Virus record (IMG/VR): IMGVR_UViG_3300020190_000032
Coordinates: 20,316-84,315 of that record
DNA: 64,000 nt
Reading direction: 5' to 3' (one strand)
Source: a virus
The notes under the pieces were generated by a model, which ran no database searches, was not told where the DNA came from, and saw nothing but the letters and a program-made list of their open reading frames with translations. Shown here piece after piece: positions 27,174-63,938 of this stretch. Every line of letters starts with the position of its first letter. Position 1 is the first letter of the stretch. A program made the position numbers and the translations under genes.

Positions 27174-27554
27174 TCATTCTTCCTGATTTATTGCCGGGCC
27201 AGTAGCAATTACTTCGTGAAGGTATCGCTCAACATTTTCGACTTCCCAGTCATGTTCGTTGGCGAGAACATTGCCAAGAAGGTTTAAACTATCTTCATGA
27301 TCTTCGTTCCATTTGCCTGACTTAAGTGCATCATTTCTGATTTCATTGATACCTAACAGAACATTAAGTTCAGAGATTTCTTCTTCTTGCTCGCTTATGA
27401 CCTGCGCATGGCGCATTCTTTCTTTATCAATTAAAGTAAGCACTATCCAGCCAATTTTGCCATTTATAATAATTAAACCTTCTGCTATACCTTTGATTAT
27501 TTTAAGTATGAGCAGGTTAGTATGGCTAACAAGGCTGAATAGTGCGTTTTTCAC
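27174..27554 (-). CDS. Unknown protein of replication operon, 126 aa
   Basis: GTG start overlapping the helicase stop by 4 bp (GTGA), so translationally coupled. A hydrophobic N-terminal part (LLILKIIKGIAEGLIIING) is followed by an acidic helical region (QVISEQEEEISELNVLLG) and a C-terminal ENVERYLHEVI. An internal Met at ~47 would give a soluble 80-aa form. Role unknown; coupling suggests a function near the helicase. Confidence 0.65.
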   Translation of the reverse strand: MKNALFSLVSHTNLLILKIIKGIAEGLIIINGKIGWIVLTLIDKERMRHAQVISEQEEEISELNVLLGINEIRNDALKSGKWNEDHEDSLNLLGNVLANEHDWEVENVERYLHEVIATGPAINQEE

Positions 27555-29302
27555 ATCAATAATCCCATAGATCGTTTTCGTTGTTCGATATCACTAATCG
27601 TAGTATCTGATTCGATCGAGGTAGTTTCGTAATCGATCCTGATAATGCTTTTTTCATGGAAGCCTTTTATACTTTCAAGGATGTCCTCACCTTGCTTCCA
27701 TAGGGCTTGTCTGCCTCTTACTTTAGAGTGCCATACCTCAAGGTCTCTATTTATTTTATCGCCATCAGCTTTAACACGTCTGATTAGCCATGTTGCATGA
27801 GAGACATGCGCCAAAGCGTCAGTTCCGCGAATCTCATTAAGTTGGGGTTCGGCACTGGAAGTTGCATCCATTCCAACACGATTAAGCTGAGCAAGTACGA
27901 ATAAATCAATATCCAATTCTTTGGCAGCCGTCATAAGTTTATAGGCTCTGTCTTCAAGCATTGCACTAGGATTACTGGCTGAACCGCCTTTGTGCCTGGC
28001 CAGTGCGTGGAAGTGATCAAGAACAACGGCCCTAAGTTCAGGGTTCTTAGCTTTCATGCTTCTCATCGTGTTTATACATGTGTCTACACATGCGCCCCAA
28101 GGAGCCTCAATAAGCATTTTGCCACCAACCTCGTCGAGCCTCATTGAGACTTCGGCGACGATTCGTGCAATACGTTCTTGTGCTTGGGTCGCTCCCGGCA
28201 GTTCTAGTTCGCCAACCGTAACATGACCTATTTTGTCTGGGGTTGTTTTTCTCCAGTGGTAAGGAGAAATCAAACTTTTACTGAGATTTGCAATCAGACG
28301 TGCTTCGATTGCCCGATTTTCAAGTTCAGCAGAAATGAATCCAACCGTCAGACCACCTTTTGCAAGGGATGCGGCCACATGAACGCCAAGAGCAGTCTTG
28401 CCAACGCCAGTCCTTGCTCCGACAACCATTAATCTGCCTGCGCGAGGTGTGTGAGGTCTTGGCGGGGCAACGCCACCTTCAATATCAAGGTCAAAAGCGG
28501 GAACACCGGTAGAAACTGGTTGATCTTGGATCTTGGCATTCAGAATGTAATCAGCCCAATTGAGACGCCCCGTGCCGGGATCGCCAATGATTGATTGAAC
28601 CAAGTCAACAACCTGTCCTTGATTACCAATAGAACCGCTCAGCATTCCAATACCTTCAAGCGTTCTTTCGTGCAAGAACTCCAAGGCCTTGGAAAGATTG
28701 GGGTCTGTTTTTAGGAATTGATTGGAAAGGTAAAGTGTTTCCTTGAATAAACTTGAAACACGTTTTTGCTTAAGAATGTCAAGGGCCGTATTCCATTCAG
28801 ACGCAGCATCTCCATAAGCCTCTATCGTTTCCGAGTCTGCAAGTTCAGAAATAGTCTCACAAAAATCAGAAAAAGAAACATTATTATTATTTTTTATGAT
28901 AGATTCATAGCCAGTTATGATGCTATCTTTTGATATTGTTTTACCCGTTCTTTCGCCGATGAAAGTTAAGTCAATCTCTTTTGCAATTGCCCTGAAGACC
29001 ATTGACGACCATAGATTTTCAGGAAGTTCCTGCCCATGGCCAACACCAAAAGCGGTTCTGAGTTGAGACCATAGTTCCCTAGCTACACCAGAAACACTGC
29101 TGAGAACGCGACTTAAAACAATTGCTTCTTGATTTAATGTGTCTTCACGTTCTGCAATAGTTGTTGGCTGAAGCTTTTCAACCAATCTTGCAGATGCCAT
29201 GACGGTCTCAATAGCAGCTTGATTTGTTCCGCAAATTTTGTCATCTTGTACTTCAAGCAGCCCGAGATCAACTGCTTTCTGGATGTAAAAGGGAAGTGTC
29301 AT
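27551..29302 (-). CDS. dnaB: Replicative DNA helicase, DnaB-like
   Basis: A 583-aa protein. The RecA-like ATPase core is in the C-terminal half: Walker A GARTGVGKTALG at ~300, Walker B AVVLDHFHALA, and the LAQLNR motif expected of DnaB helicases. The long N-terminal ~270 residues are diverged from bacterial DnaB and hold no clear N-terminal domain signature. It should unwind duplex DNA 5'-3' at the fork and work with the DnaG-type primase at 39.1 kb. It is the second gene of a leftward operon whose first gene is the putative initiator, with an ATGA overlap. Confidence 0.9.
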   Translation of the reverse strand: MTLPFYIQKAVDLGLLEVQDDKICGTNQAAIETVMASARLVEKLQPTTIAEREDTLNQEAIVLSRVLSSVSGVARELWSQLRTAFGVGHGQELPENLWSSMVFRAIAKEIDLTFIGERTGKTISKDSIITGYESIIKNNNNVSFSDFCETISELADSETIEAYGDAASEWNTALDILKQKRVSSLFKETLYLSNQFLKTDPNLSKALEFLHERTLEGIGMLSGSIGNQGQVVDLVQSIIGDPGTGRLNWADYILNAKIQDQPVSTGVPAFDLDIEGGVAPPRPHTPRAGRLMVVGARTGVGKTALGVHVAASLAKGGLTVGFISAELENRAIEARLIANLSKSLISPYHWRKTTPDKIGHVTVGELELPGATQAQERIARIVAEVSMRLDEVGGKMLIEAPWGACVDTCINTMRSMKAKNPELRAVVLDHFHALARHKGGSASNPSAMLEDRAYKLMTAAKELDIDLFVLAQLNRVGMDATSSAEPQLNEIRGTDALAHVSHATWLIRRVKADGDKINRDLEVWHSKVRGRQALWKQGEDILESIKGFHEKSIIRIDYETTSIESDTTISDIEQRKRSMGLLM

Positions 29303-30309
29303 TGTTGAGACTCGATGAAGACGTTGTTCGATTGCAGTTGCTGATTTATAGTGTCAAGTTCTTCTTGCCAACGTTTAATATCTGCTTCGTTATTTCGATT
29401 GCGGGCTTTTTCATATTCAAACGAAATATATTTATAAGTTCTAATAAGATCCTTCTGCTCTTGGTTTAGTGTGTCGCTCTTATTTGTAGCCTCGGAATCA
29501 TCTTGTCCAAGTATAAAAAGATTCTCAACATTTTTTAATTTAGTATCATGCGGATTACCATAACCAAAGACCGCGCTAAAATTTCTACCACTTTGATCAA
29601 TTTTGTTTGACCAAAAATCGCTTCTTTCTATACCTTTGCACACATATTCTATTAAGTAACAAACATCTGATTGTTTTTGGCCAAGATTTTTAAGATGCTT
29701 GTTAATAGCTTCAAGTTGCTTCGACGAAAGTGTACGAATTTTAGAATAACTTTCTGGCTTATGAGAATTCCAGCATTGAATAATGCTTGCAACTGTTTGC
29801 GGCCTTACAGGTTCTTCTTTCTTTAACATTTCTTTTTTGCTACTCGAAGCAGGTTGATCTAATTTCTGTTCTACAGGAAGTGCAACAACATTAACCGGCA
29901 GTTCATCTTGGTCTGTATAACCGAATTCGAACTTCACGGTAGGTATGAATTCGTCAATAATATTTTTATAGGCCGCATAAGGATCATGCATTGTCACGGT
30001 GCCATTATCTTCAACGGTGACAAAACCTTCTTCAACAAGTTGCGCTAGGCAACTCCTTCGTGCTTTTGTTGCACATCTCATCATCTTTTCGCAGTCAGCC
30101 CAGGAAATATTTTGAGCAGCGGGGTGAACCGCCGCCAGCCAGAGCCAGAGAAGTCGGGCCTGCTTTGTAAGCCGATTATTAAAAACTATTTCATTTAAAG
30201 GCGCTCTGACGAAACCACCCTGGTAGTCCCAGGGCCTTGCAACTTTGTTCAGGCGGCCAACAGGCAAGGCGTCGACTTCAGGCATTGGTTCGACAGGGAT
30301 CGCAAGCAC
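29299..30309 (-). CDS. Replication initiator/helicase-loader-like protein with winged helix
   Basis: A 336-aa protein starting with GTG. Residues ~40-115 form a winged-helix candidate (LNEIVFNNRLTKQARLLWLW ... CEKMMRCATKARRSCLAQLV ... GFVTVEDNG), as in lambda O / DnaD-type replication proteins. A linker rich in Ser, Lys and Glu leads to a second helical domain (~185-255, WNSHKPESYSKIRTLSSKQL) and a charged coiled tail. It is immediately followed by DnaB and flanked upstream by four 17-bp repeats plus an AT-rich tract, just as lambda O sits with its origin. Initiator function is inferred. Confidence 0.7.
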   Translation of the reverse strand: MLAIPVEPMPEVDALPVGRLNKVARPWDYQGGFVRAPLNEIVFNNRLTKQARLLWLWLAAVHPAAQNISWADCEKMMRCATKARRSCLAQLVEEGFVTVEDNGTVTMHDPYAAYKNIIDEFIPTVKFEFGYTDQDELPVNVVALPVEQKLDQPASSSKKEMLKKEEPVRPQTVASIIQCWNSHKPESYSKIRTLSSKQLEAINKHLKNLGQKQSDVCYLIEYVCKGIERSDFWSNKIDQSGRNFSAVFGYGNPHDTKLKNVENLFILGQDDSEATNKSDTLNQEQKDLIRTYKYISFEYEKARNRNNEADIKRWQEELDTINQQLQSNNVFIESQQ

Positions 30310-30345: not shown

Positions 30346-30429
30346 GGTTGTCTTAAGCAACCTTTGGGGTTTCCTCAGGCTAGGTTTGGGGTATCCTTAG
30401 GCAACCTTTAGGGGTTTCCAAAGACCACC
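30346..30429 (+). repeat. Four 17-bp iteron-like repeats (array 1)
   Basis: Repeats start at 30346, 30368, 30390 and 30413 (22, 22, 23 bp period): GGTTGTCTTAAGCAACC, GGTTTCCTCAGGCTAGG, GGTATCCTTAGGCAACC and GGTTTCCAAAGACCACC. Each is an imperfect dyad with GGT ... ACC ends and a CTNAG-like centre. They lie between the initiator gene and the divergent AT-hook gene. The same repeat type recurs at 62806-62898. Confidence 0.85.
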
Positions 30430-30473
30430 CTACCTTTAATATATATATATAAGATTATTTTAGATTTTTTAAT
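30430..30473. other. AT-rich tract beside iteron array 1 (candidate unwinding element)
   Basis: After the last repeat the sequence is almost pure A/T, with a TATATATATATA run and TTTTAGATTTTTTAAT, up to the ATG at 30474. This is the layout of a DNA-unwinding element next to iterons; it also lies where the AT-hook gene promoter would be. Confidence 0.55.
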
Positions 30474-30752
30474 ATGGGAAAACGGGGAAGACCAAAAAGG
30501 GAAAAACCGCTGACGGACGAGGAACTGGCACAAAGGAGAGCCCGTTACAACTCAACCCGGAAGCAAGCCCGTAGGCTGGCCTCACAGCAGCTCAAGGAGG
30601 AGCGACGGGAGTGGGAGGAAGTCGGCTGGATTGTCAGAAAAATGAATCGGGAAGCTGGGTTGAGTCAGGAAAGAATTTGGGAGCTGCTTGGTGGACTGGT
30701 AATTCGAAAGAAAATAAAAAAATGGTGCTCTGATGACTTCTCACCTCGTTAG
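30474..30752 (+). CDS. AT-hook DNA-binding protein, 92 aa
   Basis: The N-terminus MGKRGRPKREK contains an RGRPK AT-hook core, a minor-groove binder of AT-rich DNA. A very basic helical middle follows (ARYNSTRKQARRLASQQLK), with a possible HTH-like end (MNREAGLSQERIWELLGG). The gene starts within the AT-rich tract next to the iteron array, so it could bind its own promoter or the origin; that is inference. It is the first gene of the rightward early block. Confidence 0.7.
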   Translation: MGKRGRPKREKPLTDEELAQRRARYNSTRKQARRLASQQLKEERREWEEVGWIVRKMNREAGLSQERIWELLGGLVIRKKIKKWCSDDFSPR

Positions 30753-30776: not shown

Positions 30777-31478
30777 ATGCCTCAGGAACTCCCTCAACTG
30801 GGTGGCATTGCCACCAAAGATCTGGTCGAACATATTGGTAGTGGCAGCTTTAAAGCTTCATATATCAACTGGAGCCGTACTATGGAATTGCTCCGTAAAC
30901 ATGCTCCAGGTTGGATGGTGGAGCAAATTTTTATGGAAGATGGCAATTCTTTGCATGCCTCTCCGGTCGGCGCAAAAATTTACTTAAGGTTTCGCCATCT
31001 AGACGGAACAGTTACGACCGCTGTTCCTCAGGCCGTGATGGACCATCGAAATAATTCGATCCCTTACGACAAAATTACTTCTCGTGACGAGACTGATACG
31101 CACAGAAGAGGTTCTTGCCTGTTAGCTGCCTACCAGTTCGGATTGGCTTATGAGCTTTGGGCCAAGATGCCCTTGGAGAATGGCTATCAAGTTGCTGATG
31201 AGCAGACGATTGAAAAAGCTCGTCAGGGAACTGGTGCCACTTCAGACCCCAAGCCAACTGCTGCTAAGCTTGCGGCTACTCCTGCGGCAGAGGCAACAGA
31301 AGCTGACTTCATTAAGGCTTGTATCGCCAAAGGGCTAAATGAAGAGGCAGCAAAGAGTCTTGTTTCCAAGCTTAAAGGTGACTTCGGCAACGGAATCAAA
31401 ACCATTGCAGACAAAGATGAAGTATTTGTATCAAAACTTAATGCCAAATTTCAGGCTAGTCCAGGAGAGGATTATTGA
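30777..31478 (+). CDS. Single-strand annealing protein, DUF1071/Sak3-like
   Basis: A 233-aa protein. The order of conserved-looking blocks, YINWSRTMELLRKHAPGW, VGAKIYLRFRHLDGT, PQAVMDHRNNSI and TDTHRRGSCLLAAYQFGLAY, resembles phage recombinases of the DUF1071/Sak3 group. The C-terminal ~80 residues form a linker and a small helical domain (AAKSLVSKLKGDFG). Neighbours SSB, RusA and a RecE-like nuclease make a recombination module. Family assignment is from recalled pattern only. Confidence 0.6.
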   Translation: MPQELPQLGGIATKDLVEHIGSGSFKASYINWSRTMELLRKHAPGWMVEQIFMEDGNSLHASPVGAKIYLRFRHLDGTVTTAVPQAVMDHRNNSIPYDKITSRDETDTHRRGSCLLAAYQFGLAYELWAKMPLENGYQVADEQTIEKARQGTGATSDPKPTAAKLAATPAAEATEADFIKACIAKGLNEEAAKSLVSKLKGDFGNGIKTIADKDEVFVSKLNAKFQASPGEDY

Positions 31479-31551
31479 TATTGACGACATAGCCAAAGAG
31501 CTTGCGCTGTTTTTTAATGGCGTTATCGTCAAAACTGAAGAAATCTTTTAG
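31474..31551 (+). CDS. Possible very small ORF, start uncertain
   Basis: A 25-codon stretch (IDDIAKELALFFNGVIVKTE) with protein-like character follows an AGGAG at the end of the preceding gene. The only start there would be a rare ATT. A similar phrase (DLCDQIAKELAIYYDGIENT) occurs in the protein at 50984. It stops exactly at the terminator. Confidence 0.3.
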   Translation: MDIDDIAKELALFFNGVIVKTEEIF

Positions 31552-31572
31552 GGGGCTTGACTGCCCCCTTTC
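31551..31572 (+). terminator. Intrinsic terminator before sigma factor gene
   Basis: GGGGGC-TTGACT-GCCCCC followed by TTTCT. It separates the annealing-protein unit from the sigma gene. TATCCT at 31580-31585, 22 nt before the ATG at 31608, may be the sigma gene's own -10 element. Confidence 0.75.
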
Positions 31573-31607
31573 TATTGATTATCCTCTACCTGAATCTTTT
31601 TCTTTCC

Positions 31608-32402
31608 ATGGCCGCCGACTGCGACACCGTCAAATTTTGGCTTGATGCTGCGGGTCGCTATCCAGTTCTAAAAACCGATCAAGTTTTATTGCTTGCTAAG
31701 CAGATCCAATCAAATTCTCCCGAGAGTCTTGCGTACAAAAAGGCATTACAAAAACTTGTACGACATAATCTTAAATTGATCCCAACGGTTGCTCGTCGGG
31801 CAATGAGAAATAAATATGGCAAAAACTTTGGTGGCAGTTACACGGAAGATGTATTTCAGTGTGGCGTTGTTGGATTAATGCGAGCTGCTCAAAAATTCGA
31901 TCCAACTCGTGGTTATGCTTTTAGCACTTACGCGGTTGGATGGATTTACCAAGCCATGCAACGTGATCTTTATAACAATATGTCCCCAATCCGTGTCCCT
32001 GAAAATACAATTAGAGAATATTACACAATATTTGTTAAGTCAAATGACAACCTTGCCCTTTCTGACGTAGACCCTAAAAAGATGATTCGATACATGGATA
32101 CGGCAAGTGCAATTCGCTGCAGATCATTGGATACCTATAGGCCCTCAGGGCACGCTGAAGATGGGCTTACAGAAGGCATTGAAGTCGCGTCCGATGACAG
32201 TCCTAAGGGTATTGAGCCTATTGACAAAATCATCGACATGTCTGACTGTTCAGACCTAGCCAAGCAAATGGTCTTGGATTACTACCAGGATAATTTGACG
32301 ATGCTTGAAATTGGTGAAAAAAATGGAGTTTCAAGGGGTCGGGTTTCCAAAATGATTCAAGCATGCCTCAAGGATCTCCGCGAGAAGTTATCGGCGGTAT
32401 AA
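31608..32402 (+). CDS. RNA polymerase sigma-70 family factor 1
   Basis: A 264-aa protein from ATG 31608; the frame upstream runs through the terminator and is not coding. Region 2 is clear (DVFQCGVVGLMRAAQKF, RGYAFSTYAVGWIYQAMQRD, PIRVPENTIREYY) and a region 4 helix-turn-helix lies at the C-terminus (NLTMLEIGEKNGVSRGRVSK). There is no region 1.1. In region 2.4 the E. coli W433 and T440 equivalents are replaced by G and Q while Q437 is kept, suggesting altered -10 recognition. It lies in the early block, so it could switch host RNA polymerase to phage promoters. Confidence 0.9.
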   Translation: MAADCDTVKFWLDAAGRYPVLKTDQVLLLAKQIQSNSPESLAYKKALQKLVRHNLKLIPTVARRAMRNKYGKNFGGSYTEDVFQCGVVGLMRAAQKFDPTRGYAFSTYAVGWIYQAMQRDLYNNMSPIRVPENTIREYYTIFVKSNDNLALSDVDPKKMIRYMDTASAIRCRSLDTYRPSGHAEDGLTEGIEVASDDSPKGIEPIDKIIDMSDCSDLAKQMVLDYYQDNLTMLEIGEKNGVSRGRVSKMIQACLKDLREKLSAV

Positions 32403-32432
32403 TTTAAGGTACTCGCCCTTTTGGGTAACGCA

Positions 32433-32789
32433 ATGGCATCTATCGCCCTCGCCGGCAAAGTGGTCGGCAAAAACGGTGAATCCCCTGTCTCTCTTAAAGA
32501 AGGCAAGGATTATACAATTGCTTCCTTTTCCATCAAGGACAGCACTTATTGCTACTTCAAGAATAAGGATGACAATCCCGGTCAGTTTTATCGCTGTGAG
32601 GTTCTCGGCAAGCAGGCAGCCCTGGCTGCAGAGCGCCTGAAGCGTGGAGACCGAGTTGCTGTGTCTGGTCAGCCTGTCTGGCGTGAATACAATGGCAACA
32701 AGTATCTTGATGTAAAGAATTGCCAGATCACCTTCCTGGAGGATCTTGCAAAAACTGGTACAAGCAGTTCTGGTGAAGACTTGTTCTGA
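32433..32789 (+). CDS. ssb: Single-stranded DNA-binding protein
   Basis: A 118-aa protein from ATG 32433 (MASIALAGKVVG); an in-frame TTG lies at 32421. The OB-fold pattern fits SSB: conserved-looking FYRCEVLGKQAALAAERLKR and RVAVSGQPVWREYNGNKYLD. The tail ends SSGEDLF, like the acidic protein-interaction tip of bacterial SSB. It covers ssDNA at forks and during annealing-based recombination. Confidence 0.85.
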   Translation: MASIALAGKVVGKNGESPVSLKEGKDYTIASFSIKDSTYCYFKNKDDNPGQFYRCEVLGKQAALAAERLKRGDRVAVSGQPVWREYNGNKYLDVKNCQITFLEDLAKTGTSSSGEDLF

Positions 32790-33579: not shown

Positions 33580-34020
33580 ATGAAACGTCAACTGCAAATT
33601 GCGTCGGCATGCGACGAGATCAAAACCTTACTGATTGATAAAAATCTTCGCTACGGAGATAGCGCTTTAAATCCAGTTCGAATTTTTAGCAAATCGGACG
33701 CAGTCGAACAAATTCTAGTTCGTATCGACGACAAACTCAGCAGGATTCAACGTGGTGCGGGGCTGATAGCAAGTGATGAAGATGTTGTCAATGATCTCAT
33801 TGGCTATCTTATTCTTTTGAAAATTGCTCTTAAGGAAAATATTCAGCCGGAACATGATTCAATCACTGGCAGTTTTTTTACCTCAAGAAGCGAGTACGAT
33901 AATATTTTATTACGCAATAACTCTGATTCCATAAATCGTAATGACGTGTGGGACGGAGCTGATATTGACTCTCCATTTGATTTTTATATTGATACTATTA
34001 ATTCACGCAGTCCCGATTAA
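33580..34020 (+). CDS. DUF1599/Nmad1-like nucleotide-metabolism protein
   Basis: A 146-aa protein. The segment KNLRYGDSALNPVRIFSKSD ... ILVRIDDKLSRIQRG ... VVNDLIGYLILLKIAL matches the recalled pattern of small helical phage proteins grouped as DUF1599/nucleotide-modification-associated (K-x-YGDS, R-x-DDKLSR, DxxNDLIGY). Relatives resemble MazG/all-alpha NTP pyrophosphatases. With dCTP deaminase and ThyX present but no dUTPase seen, an NTP-hydrolysing role is attractive but unproven. Confidence 0.6.
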   Translation: MKRQLQIASACDEIKTLLIDKNLRYGDSALNPVRIFSKSDAVEQILVRIDDKLSRIQRGAGLIASDEDVVNDLIGYLILLKIALKENIQPEHDSITGSFFTSRSEYDNILLRNNSDSINRNDVWDGADIDSPFDFYIDTINSRSPD

Positions 34021-34379
34021 TGGACTACCCGGAAATCATACTGCCTTTGCGTTTAATGTCAAAGGCCAGGCCGAGAGTAACCAGCATGGGCACTTATATG
34101 CCAAAGCCTTATCAACTTTGGCGTAAAGAATGTGCTGATTTACTAAAAGAAGCTTGGCAAAGGCCTCCATTAGATCATCCTATAGCGGTAGAGATTGACT
34201 GTTATGGGACTGCTCGCGGTGATATTGATAATTATATGGGCGCTCTTTTTGATACTGCGAACGGAATAGTTTGGACAGACGACAGAGCTTCAATTATTCA
34301 ACGGGCGACAATCAGTTATTACAAGCGACCGATACTTGAGAGCTGCTGGAAGCTTAGGGTCTCAGACCTGCTAGAATAG
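34020..34379 (+). CDS. rusA: RusA-like Holliday junction resolvase
   Basis: A 119-aa protein starting in a TAATG overlap. It shows the RusA pattern: RLMSKARPRVTSMG near the N-terminus and GRG-like DIDNYMGALFDTANGIVWTD with the Asp residues that bind metal (D-x-DN ... DD). It should cut four-way junctions arising from recombination and replication before packaging. Length is usual for the family. Confidence 0.85.
   Translation: MDYPEIILPLRLMSKARPRVTSMGTYMPKPYQLWRKECADLLKEAWQRPPLDHPIAVEIDCYGTARGDIDNYMGALFDTANGIVWTDDRASIIQRATISYYKRPILESCWKLRVSDLLE
34370..34378 (+). promoter_or_regulatory. Putative -10 element GCTAGAATA
   Basis: TAGAAT at 34372-34377 at the very end of the resolvase gene, 18 nt before the ATG at 34397. 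A perfect GGTCT-C-AGACC dyad lies just upstream (about 34358-34368). Confidence 0.35.
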
Positions 34380-34396: not shown

Positions 34397-35281
34397 ATGA
34401 CAGACTTCAAGGCGGAGGTTTGTTATTTTCAGCAAGACGGTGAATATCGTCGCCAAGCCGGTGAAAGCCAGTCGCACCTGAAATCAATACTGCTTAGTCC
34501 AGCCCATTACCAAGCCAACAGGAAACGTCGCTTTAGGGCGTCTTCTGTCATGACCATTGGCACTGCTACACATTGCAGGGCCTTAGAGGGCGACCAAACA
34601 TTTGAAAACAGTTTTGTCCTGAAGCCTGAAAATGTAAAATATACTACAAAAGAAGGCCGAGAGTGGCGTGACTCACAAGGGAATAAAACCATTCTCGTAA
34701 ATGACGGGATTGACCATCAATGGGATTGTGTAATGGGTATGACCGAGGCCCTGAGAAAGATGTCTTGGTTCGATCCGTCTCAGAAAGATTACAGAAAATA
34801 CAACGAAGTATCTTTCTACTGGGAAGAGATGGGCATTCCTTGTAAGGCAAGGCTTGATAGGATTCTTGTGACTGATGACGAAGTTCATGTTATCGACTTA
34901 AAGACCACGGATTCAATTTCTGTGGAAAAGTTTCAGAGTAAAGCAGTTGACCTTGGCTACGATTTTCAGGCGGGCTGGTATTCACATGCCGCTGAATTGG
35001 TGTACGAAAAGCCGGTCAGATTTACTTTTGTTGCAATTGAACGCAATGAGCCATGGTCTGTTGGCATTTTTGAGGTGCCACAAGACATGATGCAAGAAGC
35101 TAGGCGTAAAAACGAAAAAGCACTCAAGACCTTAAGGAAATGTTTGGATACTGGGGAGTGGCCAGGCATCCTTCCAGTCCCTAAAATCCTTGAGTACCCG
35201 CGCTGGTACACACCAATTTCCGATACAGTTAACCTAGAACCTGCCAACAGCAATAGCAATGACTTCGTCCCACTTTTCTGA
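34397..35281 (+). CDS. PD-(D/E)XK exonuclease, RecE/DUF3799-like
   Basis: A 294-aa protein. The nuclease core is visible as GIPCKARLDRILVTDDEVHV followed by IDLKTTDSIS, giving the D ... DxK catalytic pattern, then LGYDFQAGWYSHAA, a helix conserved in RecE/Cas4-like nucleases. N-terminal SHLKSILLSPAHYQ and IGTATHCRALEG also fit. It probably resects duplex ends for the annealing protein at 30.8 kb. Its end overlaps thyX by 23 bp. Confidence 0.8.
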   Translation: MTDFKAEVCYFQQDGEYRRQAGESQSHLKSILLSPAHYQANRKRRFRASSVMTIGTATHCRALEGDQTFENSFVLKPENVKYTTKEGREWRDSQGNKTILVNDGIDHQWDCVMGMTEALRKMSWFDPSQKDYRKYNEVSFYWEEMGIPCKARLDRILVTDDEVHVIDLKTTDSISVEKFQSKAVDLGYDFQAGWYSHAAELVYEKPVRFTFVAIERNEPWSVGIFEVPQDMMQEARRKNEKALKTLRKCLDTGEWPGILPVPKILEYPRWYTPISDTVNLEPANSNSNDFVPLF

Positions 35282-38437: not shown

Positions 38438-39064
38438 ATGGCACGCAAAGCCAGGCAGTTTCAATTATCAAAAGAGCAACAAAAGTTAGCCTCTGATAAT
38501 ATCAACTTAGCTCGCCGTGAAGCTTGGCGGCTACAAAGAACAACTGACATCGATTACGATACCCTTGAGGGCGCTGCGCTGGAAGGATTATGCAAGGCGG
38601 CGTACAGATATGATCCTTCTTCTGGTTATAAGTTCAGCAGCTTAGCGGTCCCCACAATTAGAGGAGAACTTCTTCACTGGATTAGAGATAAAACATATTC
38701 AATGCGTTTGACGCACAAGATGCGTGAGACATGGATCAGAGGCAGAAAGTTATTATATAAAGGATTCTTGGATGACGAGATTGCAAAGGCTCTGGAAATA
38801 ACCTCTGAAGAATGGCAGGAAATTAAAGGCGTTTGCTCCGGCCCGCCACTTGAGTTGAACGATCAAGCCAATCCAACAGAGTCACTTGAGCCAGAGGAAA
38901 TTAATTTTGCAGAAAGGTTTCAGGTATTAACCAAAATGGGATGGAGTCAAATGACGGAGCAGGAGCAGCAAATGATTTCAAATTATTTCAACAACCCTTC
39001 GACTCGCATACCGTACAATCAGGTAAAGGCTTTTACTGAAAACTCAATTCGATTTGATGTCTAA
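38438..39064 (+). CDS. RNA polymerase sigma factor 2, SigF/SigB-like
   Basis: A 208-aa protein. Region 2 is visible at ~25-95: DYDTLEGAALEGLCKAAYRY, SSGYKFSSLAVPTIRGELLH and WIRDKTYSMRLTHKMRE, with the FSSxAVPxIRG phrase of alternative (SigF/B-type) factors. Region 4 is short and degenerate (SQMTEQEQQMISNYF), so promoter -35 contact may be weak. It probably drives late transcription; this is inference from having two different phage sigma factors. Confidence 0.8.
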   Translation: MARKARQFQLSKEQQKLASDNINLARREAWRLQRTTDIDYDTLEGAALEGLCKAAYRYDPSSGYKFSSLAVPTIRGELLHWIRDKTYSMRLTHKMRETWIRGRKLLYKGFLDDEIAKALEITSEEWQEIKGVCSGPPLELNDQANPTESLEPEEINFAERFQVLTKMGWSQMTEQEQQMISNYFNNPSTRIPYNQVKAFTENSIRFDV

Positions 39065-39109: not shown

Positions 39110-40717
39110 GTGGATACACTGCAAATATTAAAAGGACTCGGTTTGGCGCTTTCAGAGGAAACGATAGAAAAGATTAAGAGCCTGACGGTTTCTGCCGTTC
39201 TTGAAAAAGAAGGTGTATTTCTTAAAAGAGTAGGAAGAGAATTCGTTACACATTGTATTTGGCATAAAGATAAAAATCCATCTCTTACGATCTCAGACGA
39301 AAAAGGTTTCACTTTTTGTCACGTCTGCAGAGAGGGTGGTGATGTAATCAGTTTCATTAAGAAGAAGTATGGCTTAAATTTCAGGGAGGCTTGTGAAAGG
39401 ATTGCAGCATCAAATAATATACAGGTTATCTACAAGGACGAAGATCCCGGTGTAGCAATTGAGAAAAAGAAAAAAATCGATGCCGCATTGCATGAAGCTC
39501 ATCAAAAACACGAGTATTTTAGGTCGACATTAAAGCAGAGTGAAACTGCTATTAATTTTATTAAACAGCGTGGTATTTTACCTGAAACTTCTAGGCAGTT
39601 CAGTCTCGGTTATGACCCAAAAGAAAATCGACTTGTAATACCTATTAAAGATTACATGGGTAGAGTTGTTGGCTTTAGCAGAAGAGCAATCGGAGATGAT
39701 AGGCCAAAATATAAAAACACTGAAAATAATCTCATTTTCAATAAGTCAGAAATTGTTTTCAACGAATATGATGCAATGGAGTCGATGCGCTCCGAAGGGC
39801 AATGTATTTTCGTAGAAGGTCATATTGATGTCATTTCGATGTGGCAAGCTGGCATTAAAAATGTTGTTGCTTTGCAGGGTACTGCTTCTCCATCTGACAA
39901 TGTTATACAGCGAATGATGCGCAGAACAAATAGTTTTGTTCTTTGCATGGATGCTGATGAGGGCGGTGAAAAAGCTATAGGAATATTTTTAAACGCAGTT
40001 AAGTCTTTGACGTTATCTGGAAAGCTTGACGTAAAAATAGCTTCAATATCCGGCGGCAAGGACCCAGATGAAGCAATAAAAAATGGTTTTAATATTCAGG
40101 ATGCTATTGACAATGCTATTCCATGGCTTGATTGGATTCTTGATAAATGGCTTTTAAATTTAGACTTTACTAATACATCAAAAATTCAAGAAGTTGAAAG
40201 TAAAGTCAAAGAACTTATTTCAAATATAACCAGTTCGGCTTTACGGGCTCATTATTTTGACAAGGCGGCAATTCGGCTTGCTCAGAACAAACAAAATGTC
40301 GCGGCGGAAATACTTAAAAATCTTCAGTCAGATACCTCTTGCACACCGGGACAAAGGGTTTGGAGAAGGCCGGATAAATATTGGACTCGCTCCATTGTGG
40401 AAAAAAGATTACTTCGTCTTTATATCCATCAGCCATCTTTGCGGTTTATGCTTGGATCATTAATGGATAACTTGATTAATCCGGATATGATCTGGCTTTG
40501 GAGTAGGATAAAAGAGCTTGAAGGGCAGTCTTTGGTTGACTGCACTCCTTATAGCGTTATGGCTATACTTGCAGTTGCTGAGCCTAGGTACTTACAAAAG
40601 TTAAGGCCACTTGCAAGGCCAACTGTGAAAGTTGACGATTCTGATCAAGTCTTGATTCATATTGAAGACGTAATGACAAAGTCGATTACTGAAGAAATCG
40701 AAGGCACACTATCCTGA
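39110..40717 (+). CDS. dnaG: DNA primase, DnaG-like
   Basis: A 535-aa protein. An N-terminal zinc finger (HCIWHKDKNPS ... FTFCHVCREGG, CHCC type) is followed by the RNA polymerase core and a TOPRIM domain (IFVEGHIDVISMWQAGI and FVLCMDADEGGEKA). The C-terminal ~130 residues are helical, possibly the helicase contact. Annotated from GTG 39110; TTG 39143 is an alternative with AAAAGGA 7 nt upstream and a GATACACTG motif 21 nt upstream. It makes primers for the phage fork with the DnaB-like helicase. Confidence 0.9.
   Translation: MDTLQILKGLGLALSEETIEKIKSLTVSAVLEKEGVFLKRVGREFVTHCIWHKDKNPSLTISDEKGFTFCHVCREGGDVISFIKKKYGLNFREACERIAASNNIQVIYKDEDPGVAIEKKKKIDAALHEAHQKHEYFRSTLKQSETAINFIKQRGILPETSRQFSLGYDPKENRLVIPIKDYMGRVVGFSRRAIGDDRPKYKNTENNLIFNKSEIVFNEYDAMESMRSEGQCIFVEGHIDVISMWQAGIKNVVALQGTASPSDNVIQRMMRRTNSFVLCMDADEGGEKAIGIFLNAVKSLTLSGKLDVKIASISGGKDPDEAIKNGFNIQDAIDNAIPWLDWILDKWLLNLDFTNTSKIQEVESKVKELISNITSSALRAHYFDKAAIRLAQNKQNVAAEILKNLQSDTSCTPGQRVWRRPDKYWTRSIVEKRLLRLYIHQPSLRFMLGSLMDNLINPDMIWLWSRIKELEGQSLVDCTPYSVMAILAVAEPRYLQKLRPLARPTVKVDDSDQVLIHIEDVMTKSITEEIEGTLS
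40703..40711 (+). promoter_or_regulatory. Putative phage -10 element GGCACACTA
   Basis: GGCACACTA inside the last codons of the primase gene, 23 nt before the ATG at 40735. Identical to the elements at 1472 and 25104. Confidence 0.45.
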
Positions 40718-47146: not shown

Positions 47147-47219
47147 GGGCGCGTAGCATAATGGATAATGCAGCATCCTTCTAAGATGCCTTATGGGGGT
47201 TCGAGTCCCTCCGCGCCTG
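47147..47219 (+). tRNA. tRNA-Arg (anticodon TCT)
   Basis: Full cloverleaf: acceptor GGGCGCG/CGCGCCT, D-stem GCAT/ATGC, anticodon arm GCATC-CTTCTAA-GATGC, T-arm GGGGG-TTCGAGT-CCCTC, discriminator G and encoded CCA (47220-47222). Reads AGA. Confidence 0.93.
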
Positions 47220-47224
47220 CCACT

Positions 47225-47297
47225 GCTCCTTTAGCAATCTGGTGAATGCAGCGAACTCATAATTCGCCTTAGGTGAGTTCGATCCTCACAAGGAGCA
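47225..47297 (+). tRNA. tRNA-Met (anticodon CAT)
   Basis: Acceptor GCTCCTT/AAGGAGC, anticodon arm GCGAA-CTCATAA-TTCGC, T-arm GTGAG-TTCGATC-CTCAC, discriminator A and encoded CCA (47298-47300). CAT could also be a lysidine-modified Ile tRNA; the sequence does not settle this. Confidence 0.9.
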
Positions 47298-47303
47298 CCA
47301 CTA

Positions 47304-47376
47304 GCCCGAGTAGCCCAGCGGAAGAGGCAAACGATTTAAAATCGTTCCAGCGTGAGTTCGAATCTCACCTCGGGTA
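47304..47376 (+). tRNA. tRNA with anticodon TAA (Leu), short variable loop
   Basis: Acceptor GCCCGAG/CTCGGGT, D-arm GCCC ... GGCA, anticodon arm AACGA-TTTAAAA-TCGTT, variable loop of only 5 nt, T-arm GTGAG-TTCGAAT-CTCAC. Anticodon TAA reads Leu UUA, but leucine tRNAs normally have a long variable arm. No CCA is encoded, unlike its two neighbours. Confidence 0.85.
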
Positions 47377-52753: not shown

Positions 52754-52791
52754 GGCTCTTGCCCATATTTCCCAGAGTGTTTTTCTTTTAG

Positions 52792-52865
52792 AGCCCCTGA
52801 CTGGATTCGAACCAGCAATCTTCGCTTTACAAGAGCGCTGCATCGCCACTTAATGCTTCAAGGGC
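52792..52865 (-). tRNA. tRNA-Thr (anticodon TGT)
   Basis: Acceptor GCCCTTG/CAGGGGC, D-arm GCAT ... ATGC, anticodon loop CTTGTAA, T-arm GCTGG-TTCGAAT-CCAGT. Oddities: A instead of U at position 8 and a G-A pair at the top of the anticodon stem; no encoded CCA. Confidence 0.85.
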
Positions 52866-61526: not shown

Positions 61527-61712
61527 TCAGTTCCAGTAATCAGAAATAAATTGGATGACTTGATCAAGAGTGTCAAAGTCAGGGCTGACCTGAAGTTCCG
61601 TGGATCGATCAATGATTTGATAGAAGGTCCCAGGCTGCCCTTCGAAGCAGGCTACGACCTCTTTGTCCTGTCTCTTTAGGGATCGATTGATCACCTCGAT
61701 GGTGGTGTTCAT
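61527..61712 (-). CDS. Small unknown protein, 61 aa
   Basis: From ATG 61712 (MNTTIEVINRSLKRQDKEVV); FYQIIDRSTELQVSPDFDTL. Mixed alpha/beta, no motif. Starts 38 nt after a GGGGT ... ACCCC hairpin. Confidence 0.55.
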   Translation of the reverse strand: MNTTIEVINRSLKRQDKEVVACFEGQPGTFYQIIDRSTELQVSPDFDTLDQVIQFISDYWN

Positions 61713-61750
61713 GGGGCTTGCCCTTGACGACTCCCTAATCATACAGCAAA

Positions 61751-62412: not shown

Positions 62413-62727
62413 CTAATTACCCTCTCCCCTGAACCATCTCCTCTTATTCCCAAACCATTCAGCTAACGTAATTGGATCCTGTGGTCCAACTAAATGATCA
62501 CTCGGATCAGGTTCACCAATATCTAATGCTTGACAGAATTGATCCATATCACTTGGATCATCACCCTGTACAGCAGCTCTCCTTGCCTGTCTCAACATCT
62601 TATCAACAGTTGGATTTCTATCTGCCCATTTTTGAATCCAGGTCATATCATTGAACTCAACTGAAGCTCCAACCCTTATTCTTTCACAAATAAATTCAAC
62701 TCTTAAACGGGTTTGAGATGACAGCAT
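62413..62727 (-). CDS. Unknown early protein, 104 aa
   Basis: LSSQTRLRVEFICERIRVGA then FNDMTWIQKWADRNPTVDKM and RRAAVQGDDPSDMDQFCQAL. Helical and charged; the QTRLRxEFIC ... MTWxQKWA phrases are recalled from cyanophage small proteins. First gene of the leftward cluster. Preceded by a GGAACAATA motif at the usual distance. Confidence 0.65.
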   Translation of the reverse strand: MLSSQTRLRVEFICERIRVGASVEFNDMTWIQKWADRNPTVDKMLRQARRAAVQGDDPSDMDQFCQALDIGEPDPSDHLVGPQDPITLAEWFGNKRRWFRGEGN

Positions 62728-62746
62728 ATCCCATTCAAGGCTTGCA

Positions 62747-62755
62747 TATTGTTCC
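62747..62755 (-). promoter_or_regulatory. Putative leftward -10 element GGAACAATA
   Basis: Minus-strand GGAACAATA ends 19 nt before the ATG at 62727. Position fits the motif family but the C of the CT step is A. Confidence 0.35.
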
Positions 62756-62771
62756 GTTTGCCGTCTTATTT

Positions 62772-62802
62772 ATTCTCAATAAGAATTATTTTTCTCAATA
62801 AA
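62772..62802 (+). repeat. 31-bp direct repeat, copy 1
   Basis: ATTCTCAATAAGAATT, a T-run, then CTCAATAAA. A near-identical copy lies at 63007-63038; together they flank iteron array 2. Confidence 0.85.
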
Positions 62803-62805
62803 GGG

Positions 62806-62898
62806 GGTATCCTGAGACTACCTTTTATAGAGAGGGGGTATCCTGAGACTACCTTTAGGGTTTCCTAAGACTACCCCTAGGGGTTTCCTAAGACTACC
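62806..62898 (+). repeat. Four 17-bp iteron-like repeats (array 2)
   Basis: Starts at 62806, 62837, 62859 and 62882 (31, 22, 23 bp apart): GGTATCCTGAGACTACC twice, then GGTTTCCTAAGACTACC twice. Same length, dyad and orientation as array 1 at 30346. Spacing is near whole helical turns, so bound proteins would lie on one face. Confidence 0.9.
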
Positions 62899-62942
62899 CT
62901 TTGCTATTTAACTAATAGATTATTATATTATTAATTAAAACC
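62899..62942. other. AT-rich tract beside iteron array 2
   Basis: CTATTTAACTAATAGATTATTATATTATTAATTAAAA follows the last repeat directly, as at 30430-30473. Candidate DNA-unwinding element. Confidence 0.55.
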
Positions 62943-63006
62943 AAGATTGAAGAAAGATTCTTTTAGATTACCCCCTATAGTCCCCCACACCGTTTAGCCC
63001 TTAACC

Positions 63007-63038
63007 ATTCTCAATAAGAATTTTTTTTTCTCAATAAA
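63007..63038 (+). repeat. 32-bp direct repeat, copy 2
   Basis: Second copy of the ATTCTCAATAAGAATT ... CTCAATAAA repeat, differing by A/T content and length of the T-run; 235 bp from copy 1 start to start. Confidence 0.85.
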
Positions 63039-63282
63039 AACTATTTTTTGTAGCCAAAAGAACATTTCATAGGGTCTGCATGTAAGTCGTAGTGAAAGAT
63101 TGATCCTAGAATCCCCTGAGAGGTGTCTAGAAGCCCTTAGAAGACCTGTATAACCCTTGATGAACCCATTCCCCTATAAAGCCTTCTGAAAGCCTATTAG
63201 AGAGCCTTCTAGACCTTAGTTCTATTTTTGACCCCTAGTCTTAGACTGAGTCTCATAACTCTTATCCCATCTCACTCATACG

Positions 63283-63395
63283 AATTCCCCTCCCTACCTA
63301 TTTATCCCATCTTCCCCTTAACCCTAAAACCCTTACAATATCTACATCCTAACCCCTTATTAACTCTCTCTATTATCCAATTTATACCCCTAAAT
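63283..63395. other. 113-nt G-free tract
   Basis: No G on the plus strand over 113 bases, rich in C and T; the surrounding ~170 bases are also G-poor. No open frame of note. It lies in the gene-free region right of array 2. Confidence 0.8.
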
Positions 63396-63454
63396 GATAG
63401 CCTTTACTACTTCCCTTAGTACATTTTTGAAACCAATAACCCCTTAGGTAACAA

Positions 63455-63565
63455 GTCTTAATATAATATATATTATATAATATATAACTAATGGTTTATT
63501 ATTAACTAATAGTCTTAAATATTCAATTACAGAGTAATTGAATATTCTATTTAACTAACTAGTAA
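63455..63565. repeat. AT-rich palindromes
   Basis: A TATA-type self-complementary run at about 63458-63488. Then a perfect 13-bp inverted repeat AATATTCAATTAC-AGA-GTAATTGAATATT (63518-63546). Then two ACTAGT palindromes. Could form cruciforms or protein sites. Confidence 0.7.
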
Positions 63566-63739
63566 TAACTAGTTATAGTATATGCCTCTACACTACTCCT
63601 TCTCTCTCTCATCATTCATCCGCCGACTTCTTCACTGATCGGCAATTTTCTTAAAATTTGAAAATCTTTTCCCATAATTGAAAAATGGAAAATCTAATTT
63701 TCTTAAAATAAATCCGCTTGACGGGATACTTAATGCTCA

Positions 63740-63752: not shown

Positions 63753-63888
63753 TCTCAAAAAAGACTTGGCCAGGCTTTTGCGTACCTGTGTATGATGCAG
63801 GTACTCTGGCCCAAATGTTTCATTCCGCTCAGCAGGGTTGACAAAAGACCTAGACCGGGTCCGAAAAAAATCCACGCGCAAGCGCGAT

Positions 63889-63921
63889 CGTGAATGAAGG
63901 CCGCAACGCGGCTCATTCACG
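63889..63921. repeat. Long GC-rich hairpin
   Basis: CGTGAATGA and TCATTCACG pair, enclosing GCCGC-AAC-GCGGC: 14 bp with a 2-nt bulge. A smaller CGCGC-AA-GCGCG hairpin lies just upstream (63875-63886). No T-tract. Confidence 0.7.
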
Positions 63922-63938
63922 CTCACCATATTAAATAT

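Follow-up and report, generated by a model that had tools for sequence, protein, structure and literature searches.

In several replicons one initiator serves more than one cluster of iterons, as in P1 (oriR and incA), F (ori2 and incC) and R6K (alpha, beta and gamma), and the inc clusters of such plasmids are without an AT-rich unwinding element. In phages of the lambda type, the O-type initiators have an N-terminal part that binds DNA and a C-terminal part that binds partner proteins, and the iterons of related phages are type-specific. For phage SPP1, it has been proposed that the initiator bound at oriR stalls the replication fork, and that concatemers are then synthesized in a recombination-dependent manner (PMC6316719, PMC3485210); that is to say, the role of the second origin as fork barrier and concatemer switch is still a proposed model (PMC3485210). 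Vibrio phage ICP1 has also been reported to shift from theta to rolling-circle replication, the late peak of replication lying at a second site close to the packaging end (PMC7145576). The literature search found no description of dual iteron arrays in cyanophages.

The DNA analysed here (the window, 64,000 nucleotides) comprises bases 20316-84315 of a viral contig of 84315 bases, so the right end of the window is the end of the contig. Among named phages it comes closest to the Synechococcus siphoviruses S-CBS2 and S-CRES1-3, with an identity of 74-77% in the terminase and 50-54% in the helicase. The first iteron array (array 1), the genes for replication and recombination and a small gene beside the second array (array 2) are the following:

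27551-29302, minus strand: DnaB-type replicative helicase (DnaB_C 6e-16, phrog_19 1e-23)
29299-30309, minus strand: predicted replication initiator with N-terminal winged HTH, linker and helical C-terminal domain; homologues in S-CRES1 and S-CRES3 are annotated 'DNA replication protein'
about 30346-30430, plus strand: array 1, four degenerate iterons of the array 2 type (starts 30346, 30367, 30389 and 30412), in the same place in nearly all relatives
30433-30476: AT-rich tract of array 1, 95% AT over 40 bp
30777-31478, plus strand: Sak/Rad52-like single-strand annealing protein (SSAP), 54% identity to S-CRES1 gp6
32421-32789, plus strand: SSB (PF00436)
34020-34379, plus strand: RusA Holliday-junction resolvase (PF05866 7e-14)
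34397-35281, plus strand: PD-(D/E)XK nuclease, annotated Cas4-like in relatives
39110-40717, plus strand: DnaG-type primase
62413-62727, minus strand: small gene left of array 2 (phrog_507 4e-32, a family of unassigned function)

Array 1, the fourth site of which is best read on the minus strand (30346-30363), is located between the minus-strand pair of initiator and helicase and the plus-strand early operon, which encodes SSAP, sigma factor, SSB, RusA, PD-(D/E)XK nuclease, ThyX, terminase, primase and RNR. The SSAP homologue S-CRES1 gp6 matches SSAP_Sak above the cut-off. There are two phage sigma factors in the window (31557-32402 and 38438-39064), and likewise two in S-CBS2 and S-CRES1. Four tRNA genes are found at 47147-47376 and 52791-52865, for Arg, Met and Leu, and for Thr on the minus strand.

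The longest run of the window without genes holds array 2 together with its neighbouring elements:

62772-62802: left flanking repeat, 31 bp, holding TTCTCAATAA twice
62805-62898, plus strand: array 2, four 18-bp imperfectly palindromic iterons (62805-62822, 62836-62853, 62858-62875, 62881-62898), with own-type counterparts in relatives
about 62899-62945: AT-rich tract of array 2, candidate DNA-unwinding element, 90% AT over 40 bp, in the top 0.05% of the window
63007-63038: right flanking repeat, 32 bp, holding TTCTCAATAA twice

The near-identical repeats of 17-18 bp are GGTATCCTGAGACTACC at 62806 and 62837 and GGTTTCCTAAGACTACC at 62859 and 62882, exactly where a sequence-only reading of this DNA had placed four 17-bp repeats; they share one orientation, with a start-to-start spacing of 31, 22 and 23 bp. 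Since each iteron is an imperfect palindrome (GGTWTCCTRAGACTACC), this 'orientation' is defined by the asymmetric centre of the repeat and by which side the AT tract is on. When up to three mismatches are allowed, the iteron pattern has six matches in the window against 0.06 expected from shuffles, and a chain of four such 17-mers occurs once in the window (array 2) and in none of 20 Markov-1 simulations; thus array 2 as chance or artefact is ruled out. The same reading had described an AT-rich tract on the right, a region without genes and an earlier array of the same repeat type, and all three are borne out: the tract is present, there is no ORF of at least 70 aa in 62728-63650, and array 1 is real, more degenerate, with its AT tract on the same side. 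It had also framed the array by 31/32-bp direct repeats. These are real, differing by one gap and one mismatch, and their core 10-mer TTCTCAATAA has four copies in 64 kb, all within the two repeats; however, relatives do not keep them in this form, and they are not a conserved part of the system.

Relatives were gathered by a helicase-profile search, which gave 50 loci; the search with the window initiator protein alone recovered none, probably owing to its over-variable N-terminus. In most of the 50 loci a detector of palindromic arrays picked up one upstream of the initiator, and several others have shorter or irregular arrays by eye; in the distant relative PSS2, no obvious array upstream of the helicase operon was seen by eye. 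Array 1 is nearly always present, with an iteron spacing of mostly 21-24 bp, and the iteron sequence is wholly unlike between phage groups: GTGGACAAGGTGTCCAC in S-CRES1, TACCCAACCGTTGGGTA in S-CRES3 and TGCCCAGCCAGTGGGCA in S-CBS2, and among the uncultured contigs GCGACACCATTTGTCGC in G016, GGTTACATGATGTCACC in G001 and GGTTGCAAAATGCAACG in G009. In 11 phages a gene-free region holds another array, made up of the iteron type of that phage; these are the window phage and the following ten:

S-CRES1, 31517-31663: array 2, 7 copies
S-CRES3, 29696-29781: array 2, 4 copies
G001, locus L029, 14076-14192: array 2
G006, locus L079, 1025: array 2
G014, locus L087, 483: array 2
G016, locus L110, 532: array 2
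G019, locus L112, 17942: array 2
G021, locus L113, 19056: array 2
G022, locus L081, 7427: array 2
G023, about 20.4 kb on the contig: array 2

In these arrays the copy number ranges from 2 to 7, and in both arrays of the phages examined the spacing is mostly 21-24 bp, about two helical turns, as in iteron-type origins. The distance between the two arrays is 22-32 kb along the operon, and about 50 kb in G023, the contig of which breaks in the operon, so that it was measured the other way round. The comparison with complete relatives suggested with the earlier reading thus comes out in favour of both arrays being kept: this is so in S-CRES1 and S-CRES3, probably in S-CRES2, the annotated stretch and coordinates of which are identical to those of S-CRES1, and also in eight uncultured relatives, with matched iteron type and AT tract throughout. 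Array 2 went undetected in G009 (87 kb), G015, G012 and S-CBS2; the uncultured contigs are incomplete, the S-CBS2 record stops about where array 2 would be expected, and several other contigs do not clearly cover the site. The S-CRES1 genes gp59 and gp60 (L010 31417-31787, annotated on the minus strand) overlap array 2 of this phage and are unlikely to be real genes.

The two arrays of one phage are closely matched. The mean distance from array 2 to its own array 1 is 0.09, compared with 0.45 for shuffled pairings (p 1e-5). Six second arrays, several of them with only 2 clear copies, were found through a motif search with array 1, and because of this motif-led discovery two controls were run. 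On the one hand, five second arrays (window, S-CRES1, S-CRES3, G001 and G019) also came up with detectors that took no account of array 1; on the other hand, in a 12 x 12 cross-search, each of the ten two-array phages tested yielded exactly two clusters with its own query, and, except for the G016 query in G009, clusters from foreign queries were confined to phages of related type. In addition, an AT-rich 40-bp stretch lies within 120 bp of each of the 22 arrays of the 11 phages, mostly in the top 0.6% of its own contig or locus and at worst in about the top 1%. That is to say, in sequence both arrays of all 11 phages have the adjacent AT-rich element of an iteron-type origin. In S-CRES1 and G019 the similarity of arrays 1 and 2 extends beyond the iterons, and in G019 a 22-bp stretch beside the AT tract is identical in both copies (TAATACAAATCCAATACACGCG). 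The AT tract and this shared sequence outside the iterons favour a duplicated origin over mere extra binding sites.

By this evolutionary argument array 2 is real, conserved and functional: the two arrays stay matched within a virus despite wholly different repeats between viruses, so array 2 very probably matters for genome copying. On the same comparison of sequences, it is very probably a second origin-type site for the initiator of array 1, and binding of that one initiator to array 2 is highly likely.

As for the initiator itself, the AlphaFold2 model (mean pLDDT 84) has a winged helix at about residues 36-107, a disordered linker and a helical domain. Foldseek against the PDB with this model gave nothing at E below 0.07, just generic wHTH proteins and primosomal DnaB, and a RepA-like initiator is among the best viral structural matches (E 6e-5). 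By sequence the window initiator matched no known family, O-like and DnaD-like models included; other members of the family match HTH_36 and DnaD/O-like families, with L060 at 1e-10 to phrog_186 and L009 at 0.002 to phrog_678. Alignment of the initiators is poor over the N-terminal part and improves towards the C-terminus. Among 26 phages, iteron distance follows the distance of the initiator N-terminus (Mantel r 0.71; partial 0.62 given the C-terminus, p 0.0002), and given the N-terminus its correlation with C-terminal distance is only 0.04 (p 0.30). This covariation supports cognate binding, and these comparisons lend good support to the predicted N-terminal wHTH domain as the part that would bind the iterons.

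Of the known systems that come close, SPP1 agrees with the cyanophages in most features. Its oriL and oriR, bound by G38P, are like the cyanophage arrays two distant origins of similar build, with direct repeats and an AT-rich unwinding element (PMC6316719, PMC3485210). In both cases one of the sites is tied to the initiator gene, and the intergenic region that holds the other is among the longest; a single phage-encoded initiator serves the two sites in SPP1 and would do so in the cyanophage; and both phages encode a DnaB-type helicase, an SSAP, an SSB, a resolvase and an exonuclease (a nuclease in the cyanophage). The differences are that oriL lies inside gene 38 whereas array 1 is intergenic, that the SPP1 origins are 12-13 kb apart in a 44-kb genome against 22-50 kb in cyanophage genomes of 70-90 kb, and that SPP1 has a separate helicase loader, G39P, with none identified in the cyanophage. 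Common to both, then, are two arrays that lie far apart, match in repeat sequence within the phage and each have an AT-rich element, and the view that the cyanophage arrays may work like oriL and oriR is well supported in anatomy.

Lambdoid ori and its O protein are also similar, with four to six iterons beside an AT-rich tract and a phage initiator (PMC7466680). However, lambda has a single origin inside the O gene, not two intergenic arrays, and uses P and the host DnaB where the cyanophage has its own DnaB-type helicase. The plasmid inc clusters are close to the initiator gene, while array 2 is tens of kb away (22-50 kb) and always has an AT tract, so it does not have the form of incA, that is, extra iterons near the initiator gene without an unwinding element. 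ICP1 resembles the cyanophages in that array 2 is near recurrent contig ends, but it is an unrelated larger phage, and a link of iterons to its late origin was not found in PMC7145576.

Six of the nine uncultured contigs with array 2 (the window contig counted) end 0.5-1.6 kb from it, and two of them (the end of G001 and the start of G006) stop exactly at a homologous ..GCGCGAT site. Termini at or near this site, about 1 kb from array 2, are those of the window contig (end), G001 (end), and G006, G014 and G016 (starts); the G016 contig begins with Illumina adapter. The site may therefore be a genome end (cos, pac or terminal repeat), and an assembly effect at repeats is another possible cause. 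The elements mapped right of array 2 in the window are:

63118-63140: conserved box GAGAGGTGTCTAGAAGCCC, common to G023, with similar sequence in other relatives
63782-63804: inverted repeat GTACCTG-N9-CAGGTAC, common to G023, G006 and G001
63876-63925: GCGCGATCGTGAATG with hairpin arms, the homologous site being the end of contigs G001 and G006

The elements that the window has in common with G023, G001 and G006 in this region are a TCTAGAAGCC box, the GTACCTG-N9-CAGGTAC repeat, TTTTCTTAAAA-type repeats and the GCGCGATCGTGAATG hairpin. IMG/VR motif scans for the conserved GCGCGATCGTGAATG and CATTCACGCTCACCA boxes gave matches at chance level except in G023, and the sole Rfam match in 59-64 kb of the window had an E of 0.82, under the cut-off.

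The mechanism proposed is as follows. One initiator (29299-30309, minus strand) would bind both array 1 beside its own gene and array 2, and its dimers on each palindromic iteron would open the AT tract and load the DnaB-type helicase of the adjacent gene. Array 1 might start early circle-to-circle replication, while array 2, which lies where the early operon ends and close to the possible packaging end, might act as a late origin and/or a roadblock that stalls forks. There the annealing protein, nuclease, SSB and RusA could set replication going again, now yielding concatemers for packaging, in line with the proposal for SPP1 oriR. By this analogy, it is moderately likely that array 2 is an oriR-like second origin and/or fork barrier aiding the concatemer switch.

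The recombination genes required for an SPP1-type restart are present in the window phage. A minus-to-plus step in GC skew is found at or near array 2 in S-CRES1, S-CRES3, G021 and G022 (offset 3 kb in the last) and 4-6 kb from it in G023, with the skew peak 3-6 kb off across G022 and G023; no phage tested has such a step at array 1. GC skew is partly confounded by gene strand, which explains part of it in some phages, but in third codon positions of plus-strand genes only, the S-CRES1 step persists (-0.21 to +0.02), and in S-CRES3 the values there are -0.28 to -0.15. The skew shifts, the recombination genes and the contig ends about 1 kb away are consistent with the oriR-like model, which they fit but do not prove.

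Other roles of array 2 should be weighed against it. If both arrays were equivalent theta origins firing in parallel, array 2 having no special role in concatemer formation, iterons and an AT tract in like order and orientation would be seen at both, as they are, and the skew step at array 2 does look origin-like; since array 1 is nevertheless without a step in every phage tested, and some relatives lack array 2 or gave no sign of it, array 1 being nearly always there, this is considered unlikely. As a titration or handcuffing site comparable to P1 incA or F incC, array 2 would limit the initiator at array 1, which distant iterons of the same type, in two to seven copies, could do by absorbing or pairing it. 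Pure titration has no need of an AT tract, yet one stands beside every array 2, the arrays of S-CRES1 and G019 are alike beyond the iterons, and limitation of copy number would be of little use to a lytic phage; such a role is quite unlikely.

It is very unlikely that array 2 is an operator through which the initiator, or a regulator of the same sites, controls the promoter of the neighbouring small gene. In the window it begins 78 bp upstream of gene 62413-62727 (minus strand), an apparent counterpart of which, read by eye, also adjoins array 2 in G006 and G023 in a similar setting; but in S-CRES1, S-CRES3 and G021 the array lies just past the end of the plus-strand operon with no gene start on that side, in S-CRES3 it is between convergent genes, and promoter-like sites around array 2 are near the chance number. 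The sequence-only reading had named three options: a pair of origins, an origin together with an incompatibility-like site, or shared control of two early promoters. Of these, the retention of both arrays in relatives supports an origin-type function in which one initiator would bind both. A purely promoter-operator role is less in keeping with the position of array 2, which precedes a gene in some phages but follows directly on the operon end in others. Titration and operator roles fit less well than the oriR-like model. As for a packaging or genome-end element, with iterons that serve packaging and not replication, the contig ends described above (six of nine within 0.5-1.6 kb, two exactly at ..GCGCGAT) would agree with it, but trouble in assembly at repeats can yield such ends too, and the covariation of the iterons with the initiator N-terminus and the retained AT tract speak against it; it is considered highly improbable.

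To return to the oriR-like model, it is speculated, tentatively and with some doubt, that this clade of cyanobacterial siphoviruses carries two distant, concertedly evolving origin modules, the recognition sequence of which has been repeatedly replaced together with the DNA-binding domain of the initiator, the second module, close to the genome end, being a dedicated switch from circular to concatemeric replication that couples replication to packaging. The phages form a natural series in which the second site tracks several recognition sequences that are unrelated to one another; this argues strongly that the site is needed, and since S-CRES1-3 and S-CBS2 are in culture, the purpose of a second phage origin becomes testable. 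Furthermore, the results give a rule for spotting pairs of initiator and iterons in uncultured phages, and the matched binding domains and sites are a set for decoding wHTH specificity.

Some minor observations concern the non-coding DNA. About 800 bp right of array 2, ahead of the TCTCAAAGTGAG element, there is a further tandem array of AATTTTCTTAAAATGGGAAAAT with a 21-bp period, in at least 5 copies in G001 (L029 14912-15020) and in degenerate copies in the window (63644-63709). Some of the non-coding DNA is strongly strand-biased, with GC skew to -0.94 right of array 2 (window 63200-63500) and to +0.89 near the left end of the contig (L003 1200-2550). A 39-bp inverted match (85%) between L003 771-808, in the left part of the contig, and window 61708-61745, left of array 2, looks like a promoter and leader common to the two places.

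In the gene-free region of several phages, Fur-box-like TGAGAATNATTCTCA motifs are found (L081 7109-7210; L014 30252 and 30304; L113 19705; L084 850), and G022 has an exact TGATAATCATTATCA there. Such motifs were rejected as an account of the flanking repeats of array 2: they are enriched in the gene-free regions taken together, yet several phages have 0-1 per region. The 31-bp repeats of the window may be a variant of this motif. [AG]TTCTCA, a motif picked after the fact, is 5.6 times denser in the gene-free region than elsewhere.
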